A stretch of DNA of 64,000 bases, from contig OX235270.1 of assembly GCA_944472135.2 (NCBI GenBank), forward strand, positions 116,203,842 to 116,267,841. Reading direction: 5' to 3'. This stretch comes from Trichobilharzia regenti. Its lineage: Eukaryota > Platyhelminthes > Trematoda > Strigeidida > Schistosomatidae. Numbering within the stretch: position 1 is the stretch's first letter; each line of letters opens with the position of its first letter. This document shows, piece after piece, positions 1,350 to 46,210 of the stretch. Below the pieces are notes generated by a model. It saw only the letters and a list, made by a program, of their open reading frames with translations. It did no database searches and was not told the DNA's origin. The position numbers and the translations under genes were made by a program.

Positions 1350-3309
1350 GAGCTTTTAGACTTCTCCACGAGTTTATTAATCATCTCCCTGGTGACCTTG
1401 GACGTCACTTAACCCCGCTCACCTCATGAAGTCATGTATAAACTGACAATAACTTAAGCGACAAGTCGTTACATTTACAGATTTAGCATTTCAACTTTTT
1501 AGCACACATAATTTACCATATTCTTTGTGCTGATGCCTCAACATTTGAAGCATGCTAGTTTTTAGTTAAGAAAACTTGGCGGCATTTTCTACTGGAAATT
1601 TCGTTTTGTTTACTTTGTTCGAACCTATCATGTGGAATACAAGTATGGAATATCTTCGATATCGAGATAATGTGACATCCCTTGTTCAGTATCACTATCA
1701 GCATGTTTAAACAATTGTCAGTTCATTTATATTGTGAACACAGTAGTATGCATAGAGACTGCTATTAACGAATTTATTATCAACCTCTACAATCATATAT
1801 ATATATATGATGTTAAAAACTATTTTCCTTTAGCAAAATAGGTGTAAATAGTAGTAGTAGGAGGAGAAGGAGAAGTAGCAGAAGCAATAATACTGTTAAT
1901 TGCTACAAAATATTTGTGATTAAAATCAAACCTATGCATCAAACAATCACATACATTACGCAATGTATGAAGTGGATTTGTAGCTTACAAATTGATCAAC
2001 TAAAGCTACTGAAGATATTAATCTATGCAACTGCTTTTACTTTATCTCTCTAATACATATCTAAAACGTTTTAGGGATATTTTTTTCAAAATACTGATAA
2101 AGAAATCTGTTCTGAAAACAGTAGTAGAGAAATTCCATGGTTCTGTTGCACACTATAGTAAAAAAGTATAATAGTTGATACTTGATCGATGACGTATTAA
2201 TGAAAACATTGTTGTAGTAAAACAGAAGTAATAGAACTTTAACTGCTTATTTTCAAGTCTTTTGTGTAGCAGTCTGACATTGTTTTGTTAATTGATTACA
2301 AGTTATGCAGAAGCTACAATTTGAACATAAAATATGTGTGCAAGAGCAATTTACATTGATAGATCACTAGGGTGCAACTAATGTCGCATGTCTGAGTGTT
2401 CAATGAATTCTGCCGGTCGATTTTGAGATGTGATCAACAAGTTAGCTGACCAGCCACTGAGGTCTATTTTCACTTGATATGACGTAGTTGGAAAGAATAA
2501 GCAGGTTTCGTGCTTATTGACAATCATTGGTAAGGGGTATCTGCAACCCTGAGGGAATTGATACACCTTGTGAAGCTCCGACTTATGTCCCCCAGCTCTT
2601 CAGTCAAAGACGTTGCCAATGAGTCGGTCAGACTGACAATTAACCTCCTAGAGGCCTACAATAAATACAGTTATTTGTCACTAGGAAATATGCAGTCTTA
2701 TGTTCCATTCCTTAACTTTGTTTCTGAGTTTTCAATCGATTGCCGTTGAGATTTAATGTTTCTAATCTATGGCGTCTAAACACTCAAAAGCAAAATGCAT
2801 TCGTAGTTCACTGTGCATTGATGTCTTGGTAATATGTTGTTTCCATATGGTTTTAGCGATCGGTTTATTCCATAACATTTCCGATTCATTTAATTTTACT
2901 TCAATCATTCATTTACATTTTCCAGAGACAGATAAGCACTTCCAGGTTCATCAGGAGAGACGGTTGCTGAGTTCATGAAGAATTCGAAAACCTCGCTTCA
3001 TTTTGATGTGGTCTAGCAAGACAAAAAAACTTAACGAATAAATCAACCAGCTCAAAGAAAGAAATAACACCGAAGACATTGACTTGACATACAAATCTTC
3101 CATGTCATTTCAATATTCTTTTATTGTCCTACCAATAATTTTATTCACCTGTCAAACTGTACATATCAGAAATCGGTCATTCTATTCTATATAGTGTCTC
3201 ACCATATTAAAATTATATCATGACCTTACTTCTGAAGTATTTTCTTTCTGTTTGCTGAAAACTTTATTACACTTTATGTCATCATGGTAACACTTTGACC
3301 TTCCTTTCA
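1350..3309. other. Anonymous AT-rich DNA
   Basis: No open frame here looks like a conserved protein and no tRNA, SINE or LINE signature was recognised. A short degenerate purine-rich stretch (GTAGTAGTAGGAGGAGAAGG) lies near 1850-1890 and a short TATA run near 1795-1808. Confidence 0.5.
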
Positions 3310-4522
3310 ATTTGAACTGGTTACGCTATCATGTCATTTCGTGTATATCCACGAATAAAATAAATGACATTCAACTAGCGAATGATGAAACAATGGTTAG
3401 TTTTGATATAACTAGTCTTTATACTAATATACCAGTCAATGTGGCCTTAGAAACAGTTAAAAAAGAATTAACTGCAGACCCTGAACTCACTTATAGGACG
3501 AAACTACCCATTGAAGAAATTATTTTAGTGATTCAGTTATGCTTCACATCTAATATCTTTAAATTCCAAGGCAAAATATATAGTCAAACAGAAGGTGTAG
3601 CAATGGGATCACCAATATCCCCTATCGTAGCAGACATATTTATGGACAGCTGGGAAAATATGGCTCTTATGAGATTCAATCCTATTACAAAAATATAGTG
3701 GAGATACGTAGATGACACTTTCATAGTGTTAAAAACAGAACGTGTCTCTAGCTTCCTGATACATATAAACTCACTAGTGGAGGGAATAAATTTCACATTT
3801 GAATCAGAAAATGAACTAGGAGAATTAGCTATGTTAGAATGTAAGATAAAACGAATGAAGAAGGTAAACTGCACACCAGCATTTATAAAAAGCCAAAGCA
3901 TTCTAATAGATATTTAGACTTTAATTCGTCTCATCCGTTAACTGTTGGGGCAGGCTTAGTTAAGTGTCTAACAAACCGAGCAATAGCACTAAGTTGTATA
4001 AGCAAAGACCTAAATGATGAAATAAAACGTATAGAAGAAGCACTGGTATCAAATGACTAACTATCCTATAAAGTTCATTAGGAAGATCAGTAAAGGTCAG
4101 AAACATAATAAAAATAATGGTGAAACTATTAATGATAACATAAATAATAGAGAGAATATAAGTCATCCACTGTTATACCATATAAGGAGAGGACATCTGA
4201 GACCCTACGTAGGATTCTTAATAAAGCAGGAATTAGGGTGGCATTCAAATCTACAATTTCACTAAGGGACAAGCTCTGTAGGTTAAAACACCCTGTCGGT
4301 TGACCCAATTAGACAAAATAATATAATTTACAAAATACCCTGAAATGACTGTGAGTGAGGTCAACTACATAGGTCAAACTAGTAGGTCGGGGGTAGTCAG
4401 ATTATCAGAACATAAGAATTTAGCTAAGGGAAGAATGGTTGACCGTGAAAAGTTAAGTAATTTAGAAAAAAGCTCAGCTACTGCACTTCACGCAATAACA
4501 AACAACCACATAATAGGGTGGG
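3310..4522 (+). mobile_element. Penelope-like retroelement 1, decayed (RT plus GIY-YIG remnants)
   Basis: Residues encoded from about 3360 read FDITSLYTNIP, then GVAMGSPISPIVADIFM, then after an in-frame stop the catalytic box YVDDTF near 3700. Further downstream (about 4325-4440) lies a GIY-YIG-like stretch with IYKIP, then YIGQTSRSG and EHKNLAKG. That order of reverse transcriptase followed by a C-terminal GIY-YIG nuclease is diagnostic of Penelope-like elements. The reading frame is interrupted by several stops and frameshifts, and the N-terminal region is missing or unrecognisable, so the copy is dead. It is split at 4522 by a 634 bp insertion, and its remnant probably resumes at 5165. 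It belongs to a different subfamily from the copy at 18330-20520. Confidence 0.85.
3312..4480 (+). pseudogene. Penelope-like RT/endonuclease pseudogene
   Basis: Coding remnant of the element above. The first open segment (3312-3698) carries RT motifs with the GVAMGSPISP box. A second (3726-3917) covers the palm and thumb after YVDD. A third (4345-4440) holds the nuclease YIGQTSRSG motif. At least one stop codon separates the RT core from YVDD, and the region between about 3920 and 4320 is heavily broken. In the family this protein copies element RNA into the genome. Here it cannot be made as one chain. Confidence 0.8.
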
Positions 4523-5164: not shown

Positions 5165-5436
5165 ATAGGGTTAAAATTCTAAATGTAATATAGTTAAGTG
5201 GAGAGAGAGGTTGATTACGGAATCCTTGTTCATCGAGCCTACACCCAACACATGCAACAGAAATGACTCAATGCAAATACCAGAGAGATGGAAGATATTA
5301 TTACCGCTAATCAAATCAGAAGAGGATAATAAATAATCTTAAAATTCTATTTCAATTCAAACACATCACAACATTCTAACATGTTGCTTTTTATGACCAT
5401 AAAACACTCGTCTTATTTCCCATCTGATTGTAATTG
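5165..5436 (+). other. Probable continuation of Penelope-like element 1 or its flank
   Basis: AT-rich sequence directly after the target duplication of the GC-rich insertion. If that insertion is removed, this joins the end of the GIY-YIG remnant. No motif was recognised and no gene is visible. Confidence 0.35.
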
Positions 5437-5530
5437 TTAAGTATTGGTTTGTTGTAGGGATTTTGTTTGATTGCATGGAGGATTGAATCATGAGCTGACA
5501 TCAGTTAGAGAACCACTGGAAAACCTGGGA

Positions 5531-5576
5531 GTACTGGACAGCTGTTTCGTCCTAGTTTGGGACTCCTCAGCAGTAC
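5531..5576 (-). ncRNA. Minimal hammerhead ribozyme, core intact
   Basis: Minus-strand order: GTACTG (stem I), CTGAGGA (core, N7 = G), GTCC-CAAACTA-GGAC (stem II and loop), GAAA (core), CAGCTGTC (stem III with GTC cleavage triplet), CAGTAC (stem I). Every conserved core base of the hammerhead family is present. Stem III closes only two pairs (A15.1-U16.1, C15.2-G16.2) over AGCU, but ACAGCTGT is a perfect palindrome. Two RNAs could therefore pair into a double hammerhead, as known for other short-stem-III ribozymes. Activity is inferred. Confidence 0.8.
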
Positions 5577-5714
5577 GCACCCACCGGGATTCGAACCCAG
5601 GACCTTCTGGTTACAAGGCGAGCTCGTAGACCATTGGATCGGGTCCCAGTGGCTCAATGGTCTACGAGCTCGCCTTGTAACCAGAAGGTCCTGGGTTCGA
5701 ATCCCGGTGGGTGC

Positions 5715-5760
5715 GTACTGCTGAGGAGTCCCAAACTAGGACGAAACAGCTGTCCAGTAC
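5715..5760 (+). ncRNA. Minimal hammerhead ribozyme, core intact
   Basis: Plus-strand copy with the same 46 nt layout as its mirror at 5531-5576: stem I GTACTG/CAGTAC, core CTGAGGA and GAAA, stem II GTCC/GGAC, palindromic ACAGCTGT, cleavage expected after GTC at 5753. It lies 3' of a tRNA-like promoter head, so a pol III transcript would contain it. Confidence 0.8.
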
Positions 5761-6114
5761 TCCCAGGTTTTCCAGTGGTTCTCTAACTGATGTCAGCTCA
5801 TGATTAAATCCTCCATGCAATCAAACAAAATCCCTACAACAAACCAATACTTAAAATTCATCTGATGCTCACTAGTGACTGGCCCTATTCAGGCAGTTAA
5901 CCTGGGGTTCTAGTGGGAAGCCGTGACCAGTAGGGTACAGCAGGTTGAAGATGAGGCAGTAACTCATCGAAGAAGACATTGCGAAGTGGTCGTGCTATGT
6001 CGTGAACTGGCAGAAGTTAGAATTCAAGGACCATTGGATCGGGTCCCAGTGGCTCAATGGTCTACGAGCTCGCCTTGTAACCAGAAGGTCCTGGGTTCGA
6101 ATCCCGGTGGGTGC

Positions 6115-6160
6115 GTACTGCTGAGGAGTCCCAAACTAGGAGGAAACAGCTGTCCAGTAC
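6115..6160 (+). ncRNA. Hammerhead ribozyme copy with broken stem II
   Basis: Same layout as the intact copies, but stem II reads GTCC/GGAG instead of GTCC/GGAC. The pair next to the catalytic core (10.1-11.1) is lost. The same mutation occurs at 22720-22765, marking a subfamily. Predicted to be weak or inactive. Confidence 0.75.
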
Positions 6161-6248
6161 TCCCAGGTTTTCCAGTGGTTCTCTAACTGATGTCAGCTCA
6201 TGATTAAATCCTCCATGATTGTAATTGATCAATAACACTCATATTATT

Positions 6249-11084: not shown

Positions 11085-11575
11085 AACAGTTTTCCCAGGT
11101 TTTCCAATGGTTCTCTAACTAATGTCAGCTCATGATGAAATCCTGAAACCAATCAAATCCCTACAAACCAACACTTGAATACCAATGAGATGCTCACTGG
11201 CGACTGGCCCTATTCAGGTAGGTAGTTACCTGGGTTCCAGTGGGAAGTCGTGACCAGTAGGGTGCAGCTGGTCGGGTGTGGGGACAAATACTCGCTGAAG
11301 ACATTGGCTAGCGGTTGCGCTATATCGTGAATTGGCAGAAGTCAGAATTCATGGACCATTGGATCGGGTCCCAGTGGCTTAATGGTATACGAGCTCGCCT
11401 TGTAACCGGAAGGTCCTGGGTTCGAATGATGGCGGTGGGTGCGTACTGCTGAAGAGTCCCAAACTAGGCTGACGAAACAGCTGTTTGGTACTCCCAGGTT
11501 TTCCAATGGTTCTCTAACTGATGTCAGCTCATGGTGAAATCTTTCATGCAATCAAACAAAATCCCTACAAAAAAC
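11085..11575 (+). mobile_element. tRNA-derived hammerhead SINE, tandem (1.2 units, 399 bp period)
   Basis: The array starts within or just downstream of where the ribozyme would cut. A partial unit (tail CCCAGGTTTTCCAATGG at 11094, then linker) runs into a second unit with tRNA-like head, B box GGTTCGAA, ribozyme at 11443-11491, and the same CCCAGGTTTTCC again at 11493. The repeat distance is 399 bp, matching the 400 bp period at 5641-6225. Confidence 0.75.
11443..11491 (+). ncRNA. Hammerhead ribozyme copy with 3 nt insertion in stem II
   Basis: Core CTGAAGA and GAAA are intact and ACAGCTGT is kept. Stem II carries three extra bases (AGGCTGAC instead of AGGAC), and the downstream stem I strand is GGTAC rather than CAGTAC. 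The cleavage triplet is GTT. Predicted weak or inactive. Confidence 0.65.
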
Positions 11576-11589
11576 CAATACTTCAAATC

Positions 11590-13235: not shown

Positions 13236-13954
13236 CTTTGATTGGACACTAGTAACTAGTGCGACGTGTCTAGTCCTTTCTTTGGTGCAGATTGAATTCT
13301 ATCAGTCAGGTTTGCAGTCTGCACCAAAGAAAGGACTAGACACATCGCACTAGTTACTACTGTGCCTGCGTTCTATTTCCCATGTGAAGTGGCATAATAA
13401 GGTGAGCAACATGGAGGTTAGGCGCAGAGTTCTAGGTAAACAGGGGAAATCAATCGACGAAGTCGTGAAGCTACAAAGACTGAGATGGTTAGGACATGTG
13501 TTACGTATGCCAAGCCATCGCCTCCCTCGACAATGGGCAGTGTTAGCGGATATAGGGTCCGACTGGAAAAAAGCTAGCGGCGGTCAAACAAAAACATGGC
13601 ATCAGTCAATGAAATCCACAACAGTTGGTCTAAGCCACGTAGAAAGGTGTAGACTTCCAGGCTGGGGTCCTCGGGACGGTAAAAATCTATGGTTGGAAAC
13701 AATTGGTGACATGGCTCAAAATCGTTCTCAGTGGCGCAGATGCATCCACTCCCTGTGACTTATGATCTTCAATGAAATTGTTTTGTATTTCTTTATTACT
13801 CCTTTGTCTCACACCTCTGCTCACTGTTTCTATTATGCTTTTCTTGTACTTTCTTCTCTTGCTTCGCGTGCTACACGGAATGTGGCGACTTGAACTTCCG
13901 CACATTTGTGCAAAGTTCTATGTCGAAAACAGACAGACTACTGTCCAATCAAAG
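13236..13954 (+). mobile_element. LINE (family B) 3' fragment bounded by 13 bp inverted repeats
   Basis: Starts with CTTTGATTGGACA (13236-13248) and ends with its exact reverse complement (13942-13954). Inside the left end is a 42 bp hairpin (13250-13291 with 13318-13359, one mismatch). The coding part is the C-terminal tail of a LINE reverse transcriptase protein, followed by a 3' region (GTGCTACACGGAATGTGGCG) shared with copies at 55150-56470 and 57480-58262. Inverted rather than direct flanks are unusual for a LINE and may reflect twin-priming or a foldback capture. Confidence 0.65.
13384..13758 (+). pseudogene. LINE family B ORF2 C-terminus, 5'-truncated
   Basis: The 125-codon open segment contains [35 protein letters not shown] and [20 protein letters not shown]. 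These motifs are shared with the other family B copies in the window. In LINE proteins this lies downstream of the RT domain. The RT and endonuclease domains are absent, so the product could not support retrotransposition. Confidence 0.7.
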
Positions 13955-17015: not shown

Positions 17016-18020
17016 CACTGCCTGGTAAAAATGCACCAAACAAGCTCAACTACACACAATTATTTAGGCTGAGATAAGAGCATTTTTGCCTTCTTTCATA
17101 TCTAAATTTGCACACAGAAGCTGTGTTCTATCCAGCTGAATTCATGATACTTTATGCAGTAGTGTAGCACCTTAATAAAGAACTCTGAAATCACTTCCTG
17201 TCTCATTTTTTCCTTATAAATAACATATTCCGGAAATATTCCTTGGTTGTTACAATGGTTTAATGAAAGAGAAGCTTGAAAATGATAAATCTGTTTGTTC
17301 AGATTACTGCATATTCTTCAATTGAATGATCTTTTACAGGGAATTTGTTTCCTAGTATTGCTGCATACATGTTTCTACAAGCTTCTTTCGAATGAATTGT
17401 CTATTTCGGAAATACACCACTGTTTTCTCTGAAGCCAAAACCAATCATTTAATTCTTCGAAAACACCCTGACTCGCATATGGACAGGAGTCAGAAAAAAC
17501 TTTTGATTATTTGACTCGTGGGAATTAGTTATTTCTTGTACAGAAGTTAGGGACGATTATAAAGGCCATATCATGGGTTGACAAAGACGTATCGTAAGTT
17601 CATATTTCCCTAAGGTGACTATTTAACTCATGCGTTTAGCATTATTAATAATGAAATATTAAAACAATTAGTTCCTTTGATAAATTTGAATAAGGCATTT
17701 AGAAGACAAATTTCACGAGATGATATCAATTCGTTGTTCCTTTACAACCGCTTTACAAATAACACGGTCAACAATGATAAAATAAAGATCATGACAATTA
17801 CTCAGTTATATAAAAAACAAAAGTACATACTAGTGACTAATCATATTTAAATAGGTCAACCAGTCCATGGTAGGCGAAGGCTGAAGTCTCTTGTTTTTGT
17901 ACACACAGTTTAGGATGTATGTGATTGATCCAAAAGGCTTCCATCACCTTCAATAACCTTAAATTAGAGTTATGTGAAATAATTGTGAAACAGTCATTAA
18001 TACTGATTTTGTGACCTGAC
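17016..18020. other. Anonymous AT-rich DNA
   Basis: No gene or recognised element. Near 17700-17770 a segment (AATTTCACGAGATGATATC, then ACAACCGCTTTACAA) recurs in inverted orientation near 20820-20880, so part of this is a dispersed repeat. Confidence 0.4.
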
Positions 18021-18029
18021 ATTATTGTG

Positions 18030-18245
18030 TTTTTACGAATTGATATCAGCTAAAGAATCACTGAAAACCAGGGAGTACTGGACAGCTGCTGTTTCATCCT
18101 AGTTTGGGAATCATCGGCAGTACGCCCCCCACTGGGAATCGAACCTGGAATCTTCCGGTTACAAGGCAAGCTCGTATACTACTCAGCCACCGGGACCCGA
18201 GTGAATGGCTCATGAATTCTAACTTCTACCGATTCGTGATTTTGC
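18030..18245 (-). mobile_element. tRNA-derived hammerhead SINE, divergent subfamily
   Basis: Minus strand: linker (CACGAATCGGTAGAAGTTAG), tRNA-like head with GGGTCCCGGTGGCTGAGTAG and B box GGTTCGATTCCC, the ribozyme at 18075-18123, then the tail. It shares the CCGATGA core change with 9178-9335. Confidence 0.75.
18075..18123 (-). ncRNA. Degenerate hammerhead ribozyme
   Basis: Stem I GTACTG/CAGTAC is perfect, GAAA and GTC are present and stem III is extended (ACAGCAGCTGT). The core reads CCGATGA (U4 to C) and stem II TTCC/GGAT has a mismatch beside the core. Predicted inactive unless U4C is compensated. Confidence 0.65.
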
Positions 18246-18339
18246 GCGACCCCAACCATTAATAAGTGTTTTACAATGGATGATGCTGGATTTCTATTCA
18301 GAATAATTGAATTGGGATTTTGTATGTTTTAGTAACCAT

Positions 18340-20501
18340 TTTGGAACATGTTCTTTTCGACGACATTGGAAGGTTCTATTGGTCCTATCTATGTAGGTGT
18401 CACCGCAGCTGCAGGTGAACTTGTAGATACAGTTAGAAGTAGATTCCACAGAATTTCTTGCTTAAATCGTAGGTACAAGGATCGAAAATGTTCGGTATGT
18501 GAGAAAAAGAGATGCGGCTTAGAATGTGCGTTTGATGCCAGACTGAAGTCTTTGAGCTGTCTACTGCATAATCTGGTCACCCTTGAATGGTAGATTTATA
18601 AAGATAGCTTTCTTTGGTACGGAAGCTGCCTTTTTGAGATGTGGTCTTTCCTTACTGTGACAAGCGATAAAGTTTCCTGGATAACCATTAGCTAACAAAA
18701 CTGAATGTATATACCGAAGCTCATCCATCAATGCGTCACTTTTGGATATTTTTCAGGCCCTTGAGAACAAACATTTCACTAGGGATCGTTTATACTGGAC
18801 AGGAACAAAACTGGTGAAATGAATATATTGTCCACTCCATATCTGTTTACGAAAAATAGATCACTGAATCGTTCCATCATCTCTCATAGTTATTGTAATA
18901 TCCAGGATATCGAGCTTGTTATTCGCTGCGAGTTCGGAAGTCACTCGGATATTTAGATGATTATGATTAAATAGAGTAATAAGGTTTTCAATAGATTTAC
19001 TGTTATTACCAATAATAAGTGTATCGTCTACATAACTTTTATATAGCATAAATTCTCCAAGCATACCTTGCATTTGTTTCTACAGTTTCGACATGAATAT
19101 ATCTGCTATCAGGGGCCCCAGAGGGCTTCCCATCGCAACACCATCGATTTGTTTGTATGCCTTTTCTTGGAAGGTGAATCTAATATTTTCTGTAAATATT
19201 AAGATGATGTCTCTGATGTAAGTGATAGAAATAGGTAAGTTTATCTCATTGGTTGTGATGTAATCGCAAATGAAATCAACAGTTTCATGAAGAGGAACAT
19301 TGGTGAATAAAGATTCTATGTTGATTGAGCATATAACCTTTTCCTTAATGTTCAAGGTGTCTAGCATATCTGTCAGACCAAATGAACATTTTGCAGAATG
19401 ATTTGATAACGAGTCTCTTACAGGCGTAAGGACCTCTGTAGTCCATTTTGCGATTTTATGGTATGGAGAATTCGACATATCTAAGATAGGTCTCAGTGGG
19501 TTTCCAGTTTTGTGGATCTTTGGAAGGCCATACAGCCGGGTAGTATGTTACCCAGTGGCTTTGAATTGTTTATAAAGTTTCTTGTCATTTATAAAATCTA
19601 TACCTCTTGTAATCTATATTCACACCTCCTAACTAACATTTAAAATTGAAAATTTTGATTTCAATTTGTTTCCATGCTCATTTTGTTTACACCTGTAATT
19701 CGTTCTATCCCTGCGTTTCTAAGCCTCTTGTAAATCATATCAATTTGAAAACAATTATCACCTTCTATTTGACTTAAAATTACTTCTCCAGTTATCAAAT
19801 ATTAATTTTTGCATACGTTGTAACTATTTTCTAATCCTATGAAATCTTGTCTCTAAGCCCCTTATAATCTGTATTCGTACCTTCAAACTTTCATATCAAG
19901 TTGAAAATTATTATCACCTTCGTTACTGTGTAGAATTAAACAAACAATAATTGTATCCATGTAAAATAATCTATATAAATGCGATTGTACAGCTTTTGAG
20001 AATGAAATCACCGAAAAGATCGTCATCTTTACTGAACTTCGTGTTCTCTTCTTTCTAATTTATAAAATCATTCATCAGTAAAATCTGAAGCTGGTGATTG
20101 ATCTGCTCTTTCACAGGCAGCATATTACCAGTAGCACTGTCCACCAGAAATTTGGACTGATCTTTGAGGATATCATTCATTTTGTTTTGATAGTCCGACT
20201 TATTCATGATATTAACGTCTTCTCTTTTATCAGGTTTAAGGATAATAAGATTATATTTTTTGATTAATTCTTTAAGTACGGCGTGTTCTTTTGATAAACC
20301 ATTTTTCTGGTGTATTCTGGCATTTAGAAATTGGTGAGAAATGTCTACCAGTTTAACATTAAACCAGTTGAGATTGTCTTCACTAGAAGGAGTTAAATCA
20401 GAGATTTGATTATCGAGGTTTCCATACTGTGACTGGACTTCCATTTCGTTTATTTTCATAGGGATAGTTTTGTATTCCAATCCATACGATGATGCTTCCA
20501 A
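18340..20501 (-). pseudogene. Penelope-like RT/GIY-YIG pseudogene
   Basis: Open blocks are 20501-20055 (N-terminal region, 148 codons), 19478-19080 (RT core) and 19073-18861 (from YKSYVDD onward). A stop codon separates the GVAMGSP block from the YVDD block. In the nuclease part the glycine expected after YI is replaced (TYIDRT rather than YIGRT/YIGQT). The N-terminal block ends exactly where the nested element entered. Confidence 0.8.
19599..20057 (+). mobile_element. Nested insertion in Penelope-like element 2, 12 bp target duplication
   Basis: The 459 bp segment is bounded by the direct repeat ATTTATAAAATC (19587-19598 and 20058-20069), and removing it rejoins the host reading frame (NDFIN region). 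It contains three diverged tandem units of roughly 115-130 bp (CTCTTGTAATCTATATTC at 19612, relatives near 19729 and 19857). It ends with GCGATTGTACAGCT, CGAAAAGA and GTTCTCTTCTTTCT, a terminal motif shared with the element at 6249-7185. No protein is encoded. Probably a truncated or non-autonomous Penelope-like tail. Confidence 0.7.
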
Positions 20502-20520
20502 CTATAGTTAGGATAGAGTG

Positions 20521-20930
20521 CAGGAAGATAAATTAATTATATGTTTGTGGTTATCTTGAGGAAATTCCAAAGTATGATTCGTGTCTTTCAAAGATTTCGT
20601 TAATTTTTGTTCCGTGGAGCCTATGGTCTTTTTTACCATATCATTGCAAAATACAGTGAATTTAATTCGACATACTAAAGATGAATCATCTATAACGGGA
20701 ATTAGTCGATGAATTTCGAAAGCTTGCCATTGATTTCATCATTAGTATGTACTTTTGTTATTTATATAACTGAATAATTGTCATCAACTTTATTTTATTT
20801 TGGTTAACAATGTTAGTTGTAAAGCGGTTGTAAAGAAACTGCCAAACGATATCATCTCGTGAAATTTGTCTTCTAAATGCCTTAATCAGAAAATGAAATA
20901 GTTACAAAGCATTGTTAGCATCTGTAAAAA
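20521..20930. other. Anonymous DNA with a dispersed segment
   Basis: No gene. The part near 20820-20880 is an inverted relative of 17700-17770 (CGGTTGTAAAG, GATATCATCTCGTGAAATTT). Confidence 0.4.
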
Positions 20931-22070: not shown

Positions 22071-22479
22071 ATTCATTTCAATCTGGCTGAGATTTTACAA
22101 ATATAATTTTTCACAAATGTCTACTTCTCACTTGGCGCTCAAATATTTTAGAACTATTCTGTCAAATCTTGACTACAGTTCATTTCAATTGTTAGCATAG
22201 TTGCCAAACAGACCATTAATGTTACTTGAACCATATGAGTCATGAGTTAAGTAAGCAGAAGAAATAACGTTAGCGGACGAAACAGTACTGAAAGTGATAA
22301 TCACATCATTTTAATGCCATCAAACTACCTTGAGTAAGCGTCAAACCCTTGACATCTTCTTTCAGACTGGATGAATCAGTTACTTTTCAAGTATTGGTTT
22401 TTGTAGGGATTTTGTTTGATTGCATGGAGGATTGAATCATGAGCTGACATCAGTTAGAGAACCACTGGAAAACCTGGGA

Positions 22480-22525
22480 GTACTGGACAGCCGTTTCGTC
22501 CTAGTTTGGGACTCCTCAGCAGTAC
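22480..22525 (-). ncRNA. Minimal hammerhead ribozyme, core intact
   Basis: Stem I GTACTG/CAGTAC, core CTGAGGA, stem II GTCC/GGAC, GAAA and the GTC cleavage site are all intact. Stem III loop is GGCT instead of AGCT, so the ACAGCTGT palindrome is broken by one base; a dimeric stem III would be weaker. Confidence 0.75.
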
Positions 22526-22719
22526 GCACCCACCGGGATTCGAACCCAGGACCTTCTGGTTACAAGGCGAGCTCCTAGACCATTGAGCCACTGGGACCCG
22601 ATCGTGAAGTGGCAGAAGTTAGAATTCAAGGACCATTGGATCGGGTCCCAGTGGCTCAATGGTCTACGAGCTCGCCTTGTAACCAGAAGGTCCTGGGTTC
22701 GAATGATGGTGGTGGGTGT

Positions 22720-22765
22720 GTACTGCTGAGGAGTCCCAAACTAGGAGGAAACAGCTGTCCAGTAC
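22720..22765 (+). ncRNA. Hammerhead ribozyme copy with broken stem II
   Basis: Carries the same GGAG change in stem II as the copy at 6115-6160. The preceding B-box region also differs (GATGATGG after GGTTCGAA), a change shared with 11428-11440. Predicted weak or inactive. Confidence 0.7.
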
Positions 22766-22889
22766 TCCCAGGTTTTCCAGTGGTTCTCTAACTGATGTCA
22801 GCTCATGATTCAATCCTCCATGGAATCAGTTACTCGCATAATTACTAAAGGCAACTGCATGTAAAATTAGCATTATTCATTTCAACATT

Positions 22890-24740: not shown

Positions 24741-25205
24741 TAGACATAAATCATCTACATGCGAAATCCAGATCTTCTAGAGTCTTCTTATCGGTGGTCC
24801 AGCGTATTTCTATATTCACACACCCTGACACATAGTCTGACGTATAATCCAGTCCACCCCAATTAAGAATACCATCAGTTATAATGTGCATCGGTGGTAT
24901 AGCGGTTAGGATGCTCGCCGACCATGCAAGTGGTTCTGGGTTCGACCCCCGGCCGATGCAACCCTTTACCTCGCTAAGCCAGAAATAATGCTGGTAAAGA
25001 GGAAAGGTTGGGCATGAGGCTAGAAACCCCATCCTGTAAAATAAACACTGCTACAGAAACTTCAAGCCACTAGCTTGGACCCCTGTGTTCCACTGGGGAA
25101 CGTGAAGGAAAACAAAATCAGTGATAATAGGCAGGTAGCTTTGTCTTACTCCTCTATTCACTTGGAACTTCTCTCTGAGTTTTCCGTTGTGAATTCCTAA
25201 GATTT
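24741..25205 (-). mobile_element. RTE-type LINE (family A) fragment split by a SINE
   Basis: Pieces 25129-25205 (GKLREKFQVNRGVRQSYLP) and 24741-24885 (GGLDYTSD, KKTLEDLDFAC) are consecutive parts of the RT region of one LINE copy. The SINE at 24886-25116 lies between them. The fragment sits directly 5' of the next LINE copy. Confidence 0.75.
24886..25116 (+). mobile_element. tRNA-derived SINE with RTE-type tail, 12 bp target duplication
   Basis: Head with A box TGGTATAGCGG and B box GGTTCGACCCC. Body includes TTACCTCGCTAAGCCAG and TGGTAAAGAGGAAAGGTTGG. The 3' end CTTCAAGCC ... GTTCCACTGGGGAA matches the terminus of the RTE LINE. It is bounded by ATCAGTTATAAT (24874-24885) and ATCAGTGATAAT (25117-25128), one mismatch, and it interrupts an RTE LINE copy. 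The shared terminus and target duplication support mobilisation by RTE machinery. Confidence 0.85.
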
Positions 25206-28776: not shown

Positions 28777-28871
28777 AGGCTTGTTCATATTTTCTCACGG
28801 CCCATATTAGTGACCTAGACCTTAACGTAGATTAGTGCCAACCAATCGGCTAGCAGCCTGCTCTCACCACA
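28546..28871 (-). repeat. LTR (3' LTR of the array)
   Basis: 326 bp, TG...CA ends in both senses. It differs from the other two LTRs at 28554 (A for C) and 28564 (T for G). It includes an A75 run (28699-28773), which is poly-T in element sense. The Gag-Pol stop codon lies inside it at 28850-28852. Confidence 0.93.
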
Positions 28872-31800
28872 CTCGTCCCCCCGTCAAATAGCTTCGTGCG
28901 CAGACGTTCCGACCTTCTGGGTGCTACATCCTCTAGTTGAGGATTGTTACTGACCGGCTTGTCCCACTGTACCCATCTTTGGAGCTGACTGGCGTTAACT
29001 CGTTTCTGTTTATCACCTCTTCGGATGGTATATACTTGACCCCGTCTTTTTGTGATTGTGTATGGTCCTTCCCACTTTGGAAGGAGTTTCCGTGAACCTA
29101 GCCCGCCTCCAACTGTATATCTCCTGTCTCTACACTTCACTTGGTCCCCGACTGCAAAGGTAATGCACTGCGTCCTTTCTTTCATCTGAGACTTCATGAC
29201 ATCACTGCGCTGCTTCCGTATTACATTCTTGACTGCCTCTTTCCTCTCTGCTTTTAATTTCGTCGTACTCCACTTTTGGTGCATGGGCCAGGTCTCATTG
29301 TGTACCGGTAATCGTGGTTTTCTACCATACATCAGTTGGAAGGGTGACTTCTTCGTTGTTTCCTGAGTGGTAGCGCGATGTGTTAGTAAAATCAGTGGAA
29401 GCTCCGTTTCCCAGTTCCCGCCCTTCGAGGCCAGCCACTCCTTCAGTGTACGGTTGTTTCTCTCCGTTAGGCCATTCGTTTGTGGATGGTATGGGGTCGT
29501 TCTGATCCTCTTGATGCCCAGCTGTTGCAAACGGGAAGTAAACTCTTCACTCTCGAAACAGGGACCTTGGTCTGTCAGTATTGTCTTCGGTACGCCGTGG
29601 TCTGCAACAATGTGTCTAACTACTGCATCTGTCACGGTTCTTGCACGTTGGTCTGGGATTGCTACGGCGTCTACCCATCGTGTCGCGTGTTCCGTCATCA
29701 CCAAGAGGTACTGATTACCATTGGATGTCTGAGGAAATGGACCCATGACATCTACGGACCACAAGTCACCTATCGCGGTAACTGGAATCGACTGAAGTGG
29801 TGGTCGTATACACCGGTCACCTTTCATCAGCTGGCACCGTGGACATCCAAGTACGTATCTTGCTACGTCTTCTCTCATACCTGGCCAGTACATACTTTGT
29901 CTTAGGAGATCGGTCGTTCTGGCCACGCCTGTATGCGCTAGCTGGTGACATTCTTCTATCATGTCGTGGCGCGACGATTGAGGTATGACAGCCAGCCAGC
30001 TTCCGTCGTTCTCTCGCCAGGTCAGAGTCCCGTAGGCATTCACTCTGAGTCGATCCCTCTGTCTGAGTAGTGTGGTTAGCTCCTTACTCGCCGTAGTTTG
30101 ATCCACTTCTATTCCGTTGGTGATCACCTGTATTACTGTATTCAGCGTATCGTCCAACCTCTGCCTACGTGCAAGTCTTAGTGGGTCTTGTTCTACTGCA
30201 TGCACTCCGTAAGCGACCTCGGGCAACTCAGACTCATCTTCTGGTCTCGATAACAAATCTGCCAAGACATTTTCACTTCCAGGAACGTGTGAGATCGTAA
30301 AATCGTACTCCTGAAGACGCAACATCCACCGTGACAACTTCCCCCGTGGGTCTCTCGCTGTCTTCAAAAATTGTAGCGGCTTATGATCAGTTTCGATGTG
30401 GAACCGCCGGCCGAGTAAATAAGGTCTCCATTTGTCGACTGCCCATACCATTGCTAAACATTCTTTTTCTATCGTTGAATACTTTCTCTCTGCGAGTGTC
30501 AAAACCCTACTGGCATACTCAACGATTCCCTCGTCCTGTCTTAGGACCGCACCTATAGCGTAGTCACTGGCATCTGTGCACACTGTGAACTGTCTTCCTG
30601 GCACAGGTAGTTTTAGCGTCATTTGTTGGTGGTCGAGCAGCTGTTTAATTCTGTCGAATGTCCTCTGCGATTCTTCCGACCAAACAAACTTTGGCTCACC
30701 TAGTAGCCTGTATAGAGGGGCTGCTATCTCATTGAAGTTCTTCACGAAGCGGCTATAAAACGCTGCTCTACCCAAGAATTGTCTCAGTTTTCTCTTTGAA
30801 TTCGGGGCTGGAATCGTTTTAATCGTCAAAATTTTCTCCGGCAGTGGTTTAATCTCACCATTTCCCACTTTATGTCCCAACAGAGTAACATTCTTTTTGG
30901 CTATCTGGGACTTGGTTTTGTTGACGCGTAGTCCAAACTCTTCGATGCGTCGCAGCACGGCTTCTACATGGTTGACGTGATCGTTTTCGTTTTGACTGTA
31001 TATGACGAGATCATCACCATAAACCTCCACGTTTTTCAAGTTCCTAAGTAATAGCTTCATCAGTCGTCTGAACGTAAACGGTGCACCTGCTAGTCCAAAC
31101 GGCATGCGTTTAAATCGATATTGTGTCTGACCCACGATGAAAGCCGTCTTATCTCTATCACCTTGTTTTATCGGTATCTGCCAGTATCCTGAGCGAAGAT
31201 CGAGAACCGAAAACACATTCGCGCCTTGTAGGCGATCTAAAGTTTCTACCACTGTTGGCATGGCACACGGTCTTAACTCTGTCATACTGTTTAACTGTCG
31301 AAAATCAACACAGAATCTATACTTCCCATTCGCTTTTTTTACTAACAGCACTGGAGAGTTGTACGGGCTATCAGCTTCCTCAATAATGTCATCTTTTAAC
31401 ATCTCTTGCACTTGTCGCTCCACTTCGCCTTCCAGATGACATGGAACTCTTCGCGTTGTAAATGACCTTACTTTCGGATCACTTAACGGAATTTCATGAT
31501 TCACCTTATCGCAATAACCGTATGGGTCGCCATCTCCAGTGAACAGATGATCGTATTTACTAATTAACTCTGTCACATTGTGTACCGTCGACAGCTTAAT
31601 CGCTGCTATCTCGCTGGTCTCATACATGTTGATATGCCCGTATTTCGTGACCACCACGTTCGCTTGCGTGTCGATTATGGCACCAATCTCACGCAGAAAA
31701 TCCGCTCCTAATATCGTTCGCTGTAGTTCGGGTACAACAATGAAAGGAAACGTCACCTCGCAGCCACCAACAACGACCGTACAGTTCGATCTACCCGTTA

Positions 31801-32689
31801 TACGCAACACATACCCGCCTACTGTTTGTACTGTCAATGAACACGGGCTAACACTCTTACATAAATTCTTATCTATTAACGACACGGCCGCCCCTGTATC
31901 TATCAAACATACTACTTCTCGATCATTCACTCGCAACTTCGAATACAGAGCGCCTTTCTCAATAGCCCCCACTAAATCTAGGTTCATACGAAAGAAAGAA
32001 CAAGCATTATACCGTCTGAAATTTTTTCTTTTCCGCCTTTCTGGGCAGTATCTTCTCCAGTGTCCCGGCTTACCGCATTCAAAACACCGGTCTTTTCTAT
32101 CAGCCAACTTTAACGCCGCCACTTCCCGCTGCAATGCTTCAATTTTCTGCTCATACTCGTTTGGTTTTGGTTGGTCTATAGCGGCTACCGTTGTGCTCAG
32201 CAGCTGTCTGGTCACCTTCGCCAGCTCGCTAATATCCATCGGCTGCGTTGCGTTAACCAGTTGTAATCGCTGAGAAATGTGGTCTGGGACACTCTCGATG
32301 AATTGGGAAGACAGTAACTGCGCTTCTGATTCTTCATCTAAAGTGGGAAGTGCGCGTCGAAGTAGATTAGTCAGTTTCACCGCCAACACTAGCGGGTCTC
32401 CATCAGGTCCAAGCTTCATTGACCGGAACTGCTGCATTGCTAGCTGTCTGTCTGTTTCGCTGTCAAACTCGGAAACTAGTCGTTCAACCAATTTCTTCCA
32501 AGACGCTGTGCCATTTGACCTGTCTACGCTGTCATATGCAGCCTTCGCTCGGCCTCTCAACAGCGTCCCCAAGACAACTGCCTTCGCTGCCTGCTCCTTG
32601 ACACCCACCAGCTCAGCAACAGCCTCGAAGTCACGTAAGAAGCTCCTTATGTCTCCTTCTTCAAACGCAGCTGGCCACGGGATCTTCAT
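28850..32689 (-). CDS. Gag-Pol polyprotein, copy 1 (Ty3/gypsy)
   Basis: A single uninterrupted 1279-residue frame. Gag region with CCHC zinc knuckle CFECGKPGHWRRYC (202-215); aspartic protease LIDTGAA (D264-T-G); reverse transcriptase with FSVLDLRSGYWQ (D497) and catalytic YGDD (557-560). RNase H follows with CTDASD (D706), then integrase with an HHCC zinc site (H915, H919, C949, C952) and D980, D1040, E1076 (DD35E). A GPY/F-like module (KWEGPYTI) lies near the C terminus. All catalytic residues are present, so it could be functional. Gag and Pol share one frame with no frameshift or stop between them. The start codon lies 23 nt after the LTR. The frame runs 22 nt into the 3' LTR. Confidence 0.95.
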   Translation of the reverse strand: MKIPWPAAFEEGDIRSFLRDFEAVAELVGVKEQAAKAVVLGTLLRGRAKAAYDSVDRSNGTASWKKLVERLVSEFDSETDRQLAMQQFRSMKLGPDGDPLVLAVKLTNLLRRALPTLDEESEAQLLSSQFIESVPDHISQRLQLVNATQPMDISELAKVTRQLLSTTVAAIDQPKPNEYEQKIEALQREVAALKLADRKDRCFECGKPGHWRRYCPERRKRKNFRRYNACSFFRMNLDLVGAIEKGALYSKLRVNDREVVCLIDTGAAVSLIDKNLCKSVSPCSLTVQTVGGYVLRITGRSNCTVVVGGCEVTFPFIVVPELQRTILGADFLREIGAIIDTQANVVVTKYGHINMYETSEIAAIKLSTVHNVTELISKYDHLFTGDGDPYGYCDKVNHEIPLSDPKVRSFTTRRVPCHLEGEVERQVQEMLKDDIIEEADSPYNSPVLLVKKANGKYRFCVDFRQLNSMTELRPCAMPTVVETLDRLQGANVFSVLDLRSGYWQIPIKQGDRDKTAFIVGQTQYRFKRMPFGLAGAPFTFRRLMKLLLRNLKNVEVYGDDLVIYSQNENDHVNHVEAVLRRIEEFGLRVNKTKSQIAKKNVTLLGHKVGNGEIKPLPEKILTIKTIPAPNSKRKLRQFLGRAAFYSRFVKNFNEIAAPLYRLLGEPKFVWSEESQRTFDRIKQLLDHQQMTLKLPVPGRQFTVCTDASDYAIGAVLRQDEGIVEYASRVLTLAERKYSTIEKECLAMVWAVDKWRPYLLGRRFHIETDHKPLQFLKTARDPRGKLSRWMLRLQEYDFTISHVPGSENVLADLLSRPEDESELPEVAYGVHAVEQDPLRLARRQRLDDTLNTVIQVITNGIEVDQTTASKELTTLLRQRDRLRVNAYGTLTWRENDGSWLAVIPQSSRHDMIEECHQLAHTGVARTTDLLRQSMYWPGMREDVARYVLGCPRCQLMKGDRCIRPPLQSIPVTAIGDLWSVDVMGPFPQTSNGNQYLLVMTEHATRWVDAVAIPDQRARTVTDAVVRHIVADHGVPKTILTDQGPCFESEEFTSRLQQLGIKRIRTTPYHPQTNGLTERNNRTLKEWLASKGGNWETELPLILLTHRATTQETTKKSPFQLMYGRKPRLPVHNETWPMHQKWSTTKLKAERKEAVKNVIRKQRSDVMKSQMKERTQCITFAVGDQVKCRDRRYTVGGGLGSRKLLPKWEGPYTITKRRGQVYTIRRGDKQKRVNASQLQRWVQWDKPVSNNPQLEDVAPRRSERLRTKLFDGGTSVVRAGC
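28872..28886 (-). promoter_or_regulatory. Polypurine tract, copy 1
   Basis: In element sense GACGGGGGGACGAG abuts the 3' LTR. It is the expected primer for plus-strand DNA synthesis. It lies inside the end of the Gag-Pol frame. The same tract for copy 2 lies at 33039-33053. Confidence 0.75.
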
Positions 32690-32697
32690 TTTCTGGA

Positions 32698-32710
32698 GGC
32701 AGCGACACCA
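32698..32710 (-). promoter_or_regulatory. Primer-binding site, copy 1
   Basis: In element sense TGGTGTCGCTGCC starts 2 nt after the LTR and begins with TGG, as expected for pairing with a tRNA CCA end. The tRNA was not identified. The equivalent site of copy 2 is at 36865-36877. Confidence 0.65.
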
Positions 32711-32712
32711 AA

Positions 32713-32864
32713 TGTAACAACAGAAGACAAGGGCGAAGCAACAGATCGTTTTATTATGAAAATCAACACGTATTTATACATCTTTCAACTACATTATTAT
32801 AGACAAGCGCAGTCATCTGATTGGTTGTTTAGGTAGACAAACGCAGGCTTCTGATTGGTTGTTT

Positions 32865-32943
<79 letters not shown>

Positions 32944-33038
32944 AGGCTTGTTCATATTTTCTCACGGCCCATATTAGTGACCTAGACCTTAACGTAGATT
33001 AGTGCCAACCAATCGGCTAGCAGCCTGCTCTCACCACA
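32713..33038 (-). repeat. LTR (shared middle LTR)
   Basis: 326 bp. It serves as 5' LTR of copy 1 and 3' LTR of copy 2. It has an A74 run (32867-32940) preceded by GC where the left LTR has G only. Otherwise it matches the right LTR. Confidence 0.93.
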
Positions 33039-36856: not shown

Positions 36857-36864
36857 TTTCTGGA

Positions 36865-36877
36865 GGCAGCGACACCA
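36865..36877 (-). promoter_or_regulatory. Primer-binding site, copy 2
   Basis: TGGTGTCGCTGCC in element sense, 2 nt after the 5' LTR and 8 nt before the Gag-Pol start codon. The leader is therefore extremely short. Confidence 0.65.
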
Positions 36878-36879
36878 AA

Positions 36880-37027
36880 TGTAACAACAGAAGACAAGGG
36901 CGAAGCAACAGATCGTTTTATTATGAAAATCAACACGTATTTATACATCTTTCAACTACATTATTATAGACAAGCGCAGTCATCTGATTGGTTGTTTAGG
37001 TAGACAAACGCAGGCTTCTGATTGGTT

Positions 37028-42764: not shown

Positions 42765-42930
42765 TCAGTATAGGCAAATCTCATCCAGTTCGGGACTCGT
42801 CATCTGGATGTACCTTTACTCCCCAGTGAGTGATGGTGTTCTCACTGAGGCTCAAACCCACTGCCGATTGTTTCAAACCTCTAATTGTTATCTACTATGC
42901 CACTTGGACCACGAGAGCCACCTGTTGTGC
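42765..42930 (-). mobile_element. Sm-alpha-like SINE with hammerhead relic (minus)
   Basis: On the minus strand a tRNA-like head (GTGGTCCAAGTGGCATAG) leads to CACCATCACTCACTGGGGAG, then GGTACATCCAGATGACGAGTCC and GGATGAGAT. This is the order of the schistosome Sm-alpha hammerhead (ATCCAG, CTGACGA, GTCC loop GGAC, GAAA). Here C3 is A and GAAA is GAGA, so the ribozyme is dead. Confidence 0.65.
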
Positions 42931-42964
42931 AACTAGGGCATGCTTTTATTTAATTCAATTTTGA

Positions 42965-43150
42965 TTTTCCCTTAGACTGATTGGACCGAAGTGGTCTAGA
43001 GGATAACGCCTTGGCATGTGAAATTATGGCTACTGGATTCCAGCTGCAGTGGGGACACCATCACTCACTGGGGAGTGCAGGTACATCCAGTTGACGGGTC
43101 GCAAATAAAACGAAATGCGAGTCCTGGATTCCACTGTTATTCACCATCCG
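42965..43150 (+). mobile_element. Sm-alpha-like SINE with hammerhead relic (plus)
   Basis: The head contains TGGTCTAGAGG, a good pol III A box. The body shares CACCATCACTCACTGGGGAG with the minus copy just upstream. The 3' part is the hammerhead at 43078-43136. Together with 42765-42930 it forms an inverted pair. Confidence 0.75.
43078..43136 (+). ncRNA. Degenerate Sm-alpha-type hammerhead ribozyme
   Basis: Stem I ATCCAG/CTGGAT, GAAA and the GTC cleavage triplet are kept. The core CTGACGA has become TTGACGG (C3 to T, A9 to G), and stem II GTCG/AAAC no longer pairs well. The order and loop sequences (GGTACATCCAG and CTGGATTCCACTG) match the known schistosome Sm-alpha ribozyme. Predicted inactive. 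Confidence 0.75.
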
Positions 43151-43639
43151 CCATATCTCTGGTACATTCAGACATGTTTAGGTACTACTAGGAGAAGCAT
43201 AAATGTTATCTATTCATTCCTGGTTTCAGACAACTCATTGCTTAGTTGGTTTCAATGAAGAAGGTTTTGAAATCTTACACTTCTGCCACTTTATTTCTTA
43301 TGGATGCAATTACTTCATTTTAAGGAATTCGTTTTACCATTTCATATCCGCCTCAGACTGTGTCCGTCTAATGTTGATCTGCCTAGGGGCAGTATAGTGA
43401 TTAAGTTTAGAACTTGGGTTTTGAGTTGATCGCAGGTTGGGAATATTTTAGTCGACTCCTAGCTACTGACTACTCTATTATTCTTCAGAGTAATGTTATA
43501 TTCCAGCAAACGTGAAATCAAGGTCAAAAAAGGTTTCCTGTAGATTGTCTTCTTACGCTTGGACTGATTGATTTTCACTTGTTTTGCAGTCTGACCTATT
43601 ACAGAAATTTGCATGAAATGAACTTCACTAAATTCATAC
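43151..43639. other. Anonymous DNA between two SINEs
   Basis: Short open frames only; no gene, repeat or splice-bounded exon recognised. Confidence 0.4.
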
Positions 43640-44690: not shown

Positions 44691-44699
44691 ATTTGGTTA

Positions 44700-44995
44700 C
44701 AGGATTTCATCATGAGCTGACATCAGTTAGAGAACCATTGGAAAACCTGAGAGTACTAGACAGATGTTTCGTCCTAGTTTGGGACTCTTCACAGTACGCA
44801 CCCACCGGGGTTCGAACCCAAGGCCTTCTGGTTACAAGGCGAGCTCGTATACCATTAAGCCACTGGGACCCAATCCAATGGCCCATGAATTCTAACTTCT
44901 GCCAATTCACGATATAGCGCAACTGCTAGCCAATGTCTTCGGCGAGTACTTGTCCTCACACCCGACCTGCTTCACCCTACTGGTCACGATTTCTT
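44700..44995 (-). mobile_element. tRNA-derived hammerhead SINE with linker
   Basis: Minus-strand linker (GTGACCAGTAGGGTGAAGC, then GACATTGGCTAGCAGTTGCG) precedes the tRNA-like head (GGGTCCCAGTGGCTTAATGG, B box GGTTCGAACCCC), the ribozyme at 44753-44797 and the tail. It thus shows the linker-head-ribozyme-tail order of the 400 bp unit. Confidence 0.8.
44753..44797 (-). ncRNA. Degenerate hammerhead ribozyme
   Basis: GTACTG is followed directly by TGAAGA, so one core base (C3) is deleted. GTCC/GGAC, GAAA and GTC remain. Stem III is no longer palindromic (ACATCTGT). Predicted inactive. Confidence 0.65.
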
Positions 44996-46210
44996 TAGCA
45001 TTTGCCAACTGAGACCATCTCTGACTTCAGTGTGACAATCATTTATCCATTAAACGATGTGTGTAATGTATTAGAACGAAGTTTGTTGTCCATTTTCACA
45101 TTTGCCAGATATGGATATTGAAAACGGATGGTGTACAAAATCAGTGGTTTTTGACTGTAAGTGTTTGCTTTCTGTTTGTCAAGCTATTTGAATTAATATC
45201 ACCAGTATTCATGAGGTAACGAGTTTAGTATTAGTTAAGGCTGTTAAGCCATTCGATATGATGGAGAAGCCCAGTCGACTGACATTACAAGGATATAGGT
45301 TACACATGTTGACGAACCGCCTTCCTCGTCGAGTGACGTCAGCTGATATGGATTGAGGTTGGGGGAAAGATTATGCGGTATTCAGACTGAAACATGACAT
45401 CAATCCGTAGAGTCTTTTTAAGTGATGGTTTGAACCAAGCACAGAGATACTAACCGCATGACTAGGGTTTCCATGAAACTAAGATGTAGTAGTTGTAGAC
45501 TTTTACTGACATGGCTGAAAATGTTTCTCAATGGTTTGTGTCCATTAACTCCTTCTAAGCTTCTAGATTCATTCAGTTGTCGTCAGGCTCCAAGTAATAA
45601 TTTATCTTTCTCATTCACCTTTCCGATTATTATATTTTCTTCGAATTAATGTTGGAGAAGAATTTGGACATTGTTTTAGAACATATTTTCATATTACATA
45701 AGTTCATTTGATCTACCACAGTGTTATTGTAGAATTAATTCTCCAGAACGACTTACTGCTCATGATCACATCAATGTATTTAAATGACTACTTAATCTCT
45801 TAATATTAGCCTTACTCCCTCCAGTTTTGTTATTACAATTTTTCATATATTCGGTATTGGTGTTGCATCATTCTGAATGCACGTAATTAGTGTTGATTCA
45901 ATGAACAAAGATTCGGTGATAAACCTCTGTCTTCAACCAGGTCTATTACTATTTACTGCTTCATCTAATCTACACTGTTATCTAAATTCATGTAAATGAA
46001 TCTATAGCAATAGTCGAGCTTTTTAAAGGGATTTAACATAGCAGGTTTAATATATTGAGATGTAACTAAATTCTTATGTTTCCATAAACTAAGTGACACC
46101 GAACTACTAGTGTTATCTACGCAAATGGTACTCGAAACATCATCCAGTCATTAAAACTGTATCACTTAGATATGATAGAGAAGATTTCTAGCTCAGGTGG
46201 ATGATTTTGA
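44996..46210. other. Anonymous AT-rich DNA
   Basis: No gene or recognised element; frames are short. Confidence 0.45.

Follow-up and report, generated by a model that had tools for sequence, protein, structure and literature searches.

The hammerhead-bearing repeats closest to the element described here are the Sm-alpha and Sj-alpha sequences of schistosomes, which are likewise pol III-boxed repeats of a few hundred nucleotides with a type I hammerhead and a palindromic stem III. Schistosome and other hammerheads are described in the accessible parts of PMC8490949, PMC2770079, PMC4918200 and PMC6155905. The first of these also covers, in its accessible part, hammerheads of the W element of S. 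mansoni, of which three of five candidates cleaved in vitro; these belong to repeats of the same worm family and are likened to ours by description, not by comparison of sequences. Metazoan non-LTR retrozymes, as presented in sections of PMC7229834 and PMC7761336, are likewise tandemly repeated and non-autonomous, with hammerheads of type I, and the same sections hold Penelope-like elements (PLEs) to be the likely, unproved mobilisers of animal retrozymes, with no telling motif. Compared with the retrozymes of these sections, the SINE reported here has a loop-less stem III, as in the minimal variants, and insertion ends that indicate a PLE.

PLEs have been described in Anolis (Poseidon; PMC11167929) and Adineta (Penelopes; PMC3846280) and, in the available portions of these reports, share with the SINE head-to-head inverted copies with a tail on one of them, AT-rich targets, a minimal hammerhead and two internal start sites of reverse transcription. 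According to excerpts of PMC11167929, both strands of AT-rich target DNA are cut and extended by the PLE protein, which initiates reverse transcription internally, at two neighbouring sites of an AC-rich stem loop; the 30-40 bp tail of PLEs is attributed to these sites. For the Adineta PLEs, part of PMC3846280 records inverted pLTRs, target-site duplications (TSDs) of 8-10 bp and a 31-bp tail that is optional on one inverted pLTR. Unlike these PLEs, the SINE has pol III boxes and no ORF, and its tail is unlike those of the two PLE families examined here. In the literature searched, a body of work surveyed in part, no hammerhead SINE with insertion ends of the PLE type was recognised.

The window, i.e. 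the whole 64,000-nt stretch of Trichobilharzia regenti DNA that was analysed, lies on contig C8 of the 954-Mb assembly used for the genome-wide searches, in which the schistosome spliced leader, used as a pattern, has one exact match, on C1, as befits a schistosomatid. Hammerheads were scored with the Rfam covariance model RF00163 (Hammerhead_1, type I; gathering score 34), and SINE units were numbered from the first base of ribozyme stem I, with the predicted cut after position 40. At least 34 bits were reached at seven places in the window. These places and the insertions around them are given below, where sites A and B denote two fixed 3' ends of the copies and bit scores refer to RF00163.

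5425..5436, no strand: left TSD TGATTGTAATTG, exact repeat of 6216-6227
5437..5636, minus strand: inverted arm of 200 nt, outer end at site B, 100% complementary to 5655-5854
5531-5576, minus strand: type I hammerhead with intact core, 53.5 bits
5629..6215, plus strand: direct arm with its outer end at site A, made up of two 400-nt units in tandem (spacing 400, 99% identity)
5650..5660, plus strand: A-box-like TGGCTCAATGG, found as a pattern in the unit
5694..5704, plus strand: B-box-like GGTTCGAATCC, found as a pattern in the unit
5715-5760, plus strand: type I hammerhead with intact core, 53.5 bits
6115-6160, plus strand: hammerhead with altered core (C-to-G beside GAAA), 49.9 bits
6216..6227, no strand: right TSD TGATTGTAATTG, exact repeat of 5425-5436
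11087..11586, plus strand: copy whose 5' end falls on the hammerhead cut site, at unit position 41, and whose 3' end is site B; the sole such copy in the window
22373..22384, no strand: GAATCAGTTACT, the left TSD in the second pair (TSD search)
22385..22603, minus strand: inverted arm that has site B as its end and contains the intact hammerhead 22480-22525 (copy alignment, Rfam)
22480-22525, minus strand: type I hammerhead with intact core, 52.5 bits, in the inverted arm of the second pair
22602..22822, plus strand: direct arm that has site A as its end and contains the altered hammerhead 22720-22765 (copy alignment, Rfam)
22720-22765, plus strand: hammerhead with altered core, 49.9 bits, in the direct arm of the second pair
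22823..22834, no strand: right TSD GAATCAGTTACT of the second pair (TSD search)
42810..43153, plus strand: old Sm-alpha-like head-to-head copy containing the hammerhead 43085-43129(+) (Rfam, end classes)
43085-43129, plus strand: Sm-alpha-like hammerhead, 50.1 bits
44684..44695, no strand: CTTTAGCATTTG, the left TSD next to a single-orientation copy (TSD search)
44693..44993, minus strand: single-orientation copy ending at site A, its overlap with the TSD being alignment run-on (copy alignment, Rfam)
44753-44797, minus strand: hammerhead, 34.7 bits, within the single-orientation copy
44993..45004, no strand: right TSD CTTTAGCATTTG (TSD search)

A further stretch, 11443-11491(+), scored 32.9 bits, just below the gathering score. 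The earlier note on this DNA had claimed three intact hammerheads (5531-5576, 5715-5760 and 22480-22525) and had proposed a covariance-model search, which bears the claim out: the three score 52.5-53.5 bits against a gathering score of 34, and the core pattern CTGANGAGTCC..GGACGAAA has three matches in the window, at the same places (mean of 0.00 in 100 shuffles). The cut in 5715-5760 was placed from the consensus, and we take it to lie after 5754 (unit position 40). An intact ribozyme core had also been ascribed to 5636-6225 as a whole, which is correct for 5715-5760 but not for 6115-6160, where GGAG replaces GGAC next to GAAA, a change that recurs in 22720-22765; owing to this base change, one of the two ribozymes in 5636-6225 looks intact, and the one at 6115-6160 is probably inactive. 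The perfect palindrome noted in the first two intact copies is indeed present, with ACGGCTGT in its place in the third (22480-22525), and such a loop-less palindromic stem III would fit the predicted cleavage as a dimer. With the Hammerhead_3 model, the genome gave 0 matches and the controls were likewise empty. Hits to mir-607, mir-3165, mir-345 and mir-63 over the SINE pairs were rejected, as they fell below their own Rfam cut-offs and reflect merely the inverted repeats. A degenerate hammerhead-like stretch at 709-750, weakly similar to the SINE ribozyme and without an Rfam match, has an ATG after the 5' strand of stem II, as in PLE pLTRs.

The boundaries first given for the element, 5636-6225, have to be replaced: 5437-6215 is a single insertion, in which an inverted copy stands head-to-head with a tandem dimer inside the 12-nt TSD TGATTGTAATTG (5425-5436 and 6216-6227). 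A second head-to-head insertion, 22385-22822, is bounded by GAATCAGTTACT. The near-perfect hairpin at 13246-13363, with arms of ~50 nt and a short loop, is probably another head-to-head inverted repeat.

The length of the SINE unit was fixed from tandem arrays at 394-400 nt (periods 394, 397 and 400), with two subfamilies of ~400 and ~394 nt. One array on contig C1 of the assembly (G000; ~3.878-3.884 Mb, L012-L024) comprises at least 12 identical 394-nt ribozyme units, 12 of 13 consecutive compared units being identical over 394 nt and the last running beyond the array; a second array has an exact 400-nt period. Genome-wide, a ribozyme word of 33 nt, one base of which was left free, has 4,157 copies, and its backward control has 0. 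In a pattern search, the pol III-like A box TGGCTCAATGG starts at unit position 336 and the B box GGTTCGAATCC at 380, a tRNA-like spacing. The tRNA-type pol III head proposed earlier is therefore present as far as its boxes are concerned, but neither ARAGORN (bacterial settings) nor Rfam (E up to 1) calls a tRNA at the SINE head. Copies are dispersed, carry TSDs, contain no ORF and have two alternative 3' ends without a poly-A or simple-repeat tail. The element is a non-coding, very abundant hammerhead SINE with pol III-like boxes and, as far as its sequence allows this to be tested, would represent a further, new hammerhead-SINE family; it was not recognised in the part of the listed literature that was consulted.

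That the SINE is distinct from Sm-alpha, as the earlier note had it, could be upheld with a co-resident Sm-alpha-like family as stand-in for the published Sm-alpha, as stem I, other stem positions and unit length differ. The Sm-alpha-like family is common (at least 74 candidates scored, 74/74 over the Rfam cut-off) and is unlike the SINE in stem I, linker and body, the two bodies having been run as separate units in the searches, in its unit of 329 nt versus 394-400 nt and in an A-B distance of ~117 versus ~35 nt, but it shows the same A/B head-to-head rule. An insertion rule that appears common to two SINE families and a resident PLE is, in our opinion, a stronger point than a new family. Two peculiarities of individual copies were noted. 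One SINE insertion recurs, TSD included, at two C1 places in opposite orientation (L005, L006), either through inverted segmental duplication or as an effect of the assembly; and at G000 C1:9318277-9324175, four copies of a SINE tail word lie ~1,966 bp apart in one orientation, so spaced by a larger tandem array of which the SINE is part.

The copies sampled come from one genome, almost wholly from one chromosome, and were chosen for intact ribozyme words. Of 34 distinct insertions fetched solely for the ribozyme word, 19 contained a head-to-head pair and 15 a single orientation. Among the first 100 tail-word places listed, neighbours within 1 kb were head-to-head in 17 cases, tandem in 4 and tail-to-tail in 0, with ~0.6 close pairs expected by chance. 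At loci not chosen as pairs, adjacent opposite arms were head-to-head 28 times and tail-to-tail once for the SINE, and 25 times and twice, respectively, for the Sm-alpha-like family. An exact TSD of at least 9 nt bounds 45 of the 64 head-to-head pairs of both families, compared to 0.4% of 1,126 random placements; pair TSDs are mostly 12-13 nt long and 80% A+T.

SINE arms end either at site A (unit position ~94-116) or at site B (~126-150), in a typical copy near 59-63 and 94-96 nt past the predicted cut, ~35 nt apart. The stretch between them is 80% A+C, and the two sites flank the 40 nt that are richest in A+C within the unit (beginning at position 104). Sm-alpha-like arms end at ~66-92 and ~184-206, with ~117 nt and 66% A+C between the sites. 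The A and B zones were defined after the ends had been viewed, but blind to pairing. Over both families, the 64 head-to-head pairs comprise 54 A/B, 3 A/A (L051, L057 and the Sm-alpha-like L038), 1 B/B (L094 with L110) and 6 with an end outside the zones, so that 54 of 58 classified pairs have one arm per end. Of the 54 A/B pairs, 44 have a TSD, compared with none of the 4 like-ended pairs and 1 of the other 6 (Fisher p 0.002); thus all TSD-bounded pairs with both ends assigned, SINE and Sm-alpha-like together, are A/B (44/44). The 17 head-to-head pairs from the 100 listed tail-word places divide into 16 A/B (4 from the first sample and 12 fetched later, with L106 and L102 assigned by eye) and the B/B pair already mentioned; three more apparent B/B pairs became A/B once their outer ends had been fetched. 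Genome-wide, a word leading up to A has 4,270 copies, the next 15 nt being kept in 1,732 and the 15 nt on the other side, as control, in 3,087, from which roughly half of the copies extend beyond A. No common structure was seen in the A-B region, and folding was unremarkable in 3 of 4 sequences tried.

Two Penelope-like pieces lie in the window:

3291..3695, plus strand: reverse transcriptase (RT) piece of a second Penelope-like family, PLE2 (Pfam and homology searches)
17658..20708, minus strand: broken PLE1-type copy with an RT piece at 19083-19547 (tblastn with the 829-aa PLE1 protein, pieces 77-93% identical; Pfam RVT_1)

The genome contains Penelope-like ORFs that combine an RT with a GIY-YIG fold, the latter as predicted by fold comparison, which was employed for the PLE1 C-terminus because Pfam GIY-YIG gave no match there up to E 10. 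The best homologue of the commonest PLE protein examined, 95% identical over 76% of the query, is named Trichobilharzia szidati, a species for which Penelope-like RT sequences are reported in part of PMC4465651. PLE1 copies follow the same two-end rule, complete in one pair (L082). Neither PLE1 nor PLE2, the two PLE families compared, has a SINE-like A-B tail or an Rfam hammerhead.

The TSD-bounded head-to-head double insertions with two fixed ends indicate Penelope-like machinery, and we consider it probable from the sequences that the SINE is a non-autonomous hammerhead element of the retrozyme/Sm-alpha kind, copied in trans by a PLE enzyme. The earlier reading as a ribozyme-bearing SINE is thereby supported in part, namely for a distinct SINE with pol III boxes; the head-to-head, TSD-bounded insertions with two ends go beyond it. 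In the proposed mechanism, the PLE protein would bind the SINE RNA at the A-B stretch and cut both target strands at AT-rich DNA; reverse transcription would begin at A for one target strand and at B for the second, and the two cDNAs, often made off two different RNAs, would be joined at their upstream ends. As weaker steps, the hammerhead may trim read-through or tandem transcripts, acting as a dimer via its loop-less palindromic stem III, and the trimmed unit-length RNAs may circularise. We lean slightly towards the further view that hammerhead SINEs are obligate PLE parasites, in which asymmetric double priming is built in, with each complete insertion primed at A on one target strand and at B on the second, frequently from two RNAs, and the head-to-head pair is the normal product rather than an accident. 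Against copying by a PLE enzyme stand the Sm-alpha-like A-B stretch, which at ~117 nt is outside the published PLE tail length of 30-40 nt and has only 66% A+C, the SINE-unlike tails of PLE1 and PLE2 and their want of an Rfam hammerhead, the unremarkable A-B folding in 3 of 4 sequences and the finding, detailed below, of no excess of 5' ends at the cut site; in the accessible text of PMC11167929, moreover, top and bottom strands show no start-site difference and hammerhead mutants still inserted.

If the SINE were instead an ordinary tRNA-type element moved by a LINE, with inverted copies formed by LINE-style twin priming, its pol III-like boxes, its TSDs, its truncated 5' ends and the small overlaps at its junctions would be unsurprising, since all of them occur with LINE-driven SINEs, and the window does hold LINE-type RT pieces. 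We regard this as improbable given the two alternative 3' ends without a poly-A or simple-repeat tail, the A/B state of 54 of 58 classified pairs and the adherence of PLE1 to the same rule; the two arms also often cover one and the same stretch, a result that is not obtained by simple twin priming on a single linear RNA. Even less credible to us are DNA-level palindromes or self-primed fold-back cDNAs in place of double priming. They would predict equal ends, but the assigned TSD-bounded pairs are A/B throughout (44/44). Some pairs do have identical arms (L101 228/228 nt, L109 184/184, L105 98/98), and self-priming is discussed for PLE palindromes in a portion of PMC3846280; the mean rank of the partner arm, however, is 0.37 (sd ~0.05) for the SINE and 0.45 (sd ~0.08) for the Sm-alpha-like family, with 0.5 expected at random, i.e. 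the partner is often no closer than unrelated arms, so that the two cDNAs often stem from two RNAs.

The part played by the hammerhead allows two further readings. A strict retrozyme cycle, in which the hammerhead makes circles whose reverse transcription is obligatory, is conceivable but doubtful. Arrays in which the units do not differ (12 units in one; the exact 400-nt array) would follow from it, but unequal crossing-over also yields them. Within one arm, repeated units match to at least 98% in 6 of 16 multi-unit rows (with two rows belonging to a single array), as circles would give, and differ by at least 7% in 8 of 16, as from template switching or mixed tandem transcripts; with this mixed picture, circular RNA is possible. 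Arms of 0.97-1.02 unit, as expected after one round of a circle, number 7 of 117, which is suggestive only, and 0 of 57 among Sm-alpha-like arms. The other reading, that the hammerhead is a passenger from a PLE pLTR, no longer needed, and that mobilisation requires the A-B module only, seems to us rather unlikely. It would agree with the Anolis PLE, whose in vitro insertion was unaffected by hammerhead mutants in the excerpted part of PMC11167929, and with the cut site itself, where neither an excess of 5' ends (window and fetched copies; one each at 11087, L005 and L031) nor a drop in linkage (two subfamilies, few mosaics) was found. Against it, the ribozyme motif is kept in 4,157 exact copies, two unrelated SINE families retain a hammerhead, and stems I and III covary between the SINE and the Sm-alpha-like family, 6 of 14 pairs being changed on both sides in a set of 8 sequences only.

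Were obligate PLE parasitism true, hammerhead SINEs would form a class partnered by PLEs; to our knowledge, the SINEs with known partners so far all use LINEs. The end rule offers a sign, readable in any genome, for which enzyme moves a retrozyme, and brings the question of the mobiliser within reach of an assay that needs just a single purified protein and a short RNA. The thousands of SINE copies form a large natural record of PLE insertion, and suggest that the two published start sites of reverse transcription serve one target strand each.

Other mobile sequences were also observed in the window. LINE-type RT pieces are present (Pfam), and near them ARAGORN calls a tRNA-Gly at 24887-24963. 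At 28853-36940, two tandem Gypsy-like polyprotein frames of 1,307 aa lie 4,167 bp apart with 3,920/3,921 bases identical, constituting a very young tandem LTR-retrotransposon.
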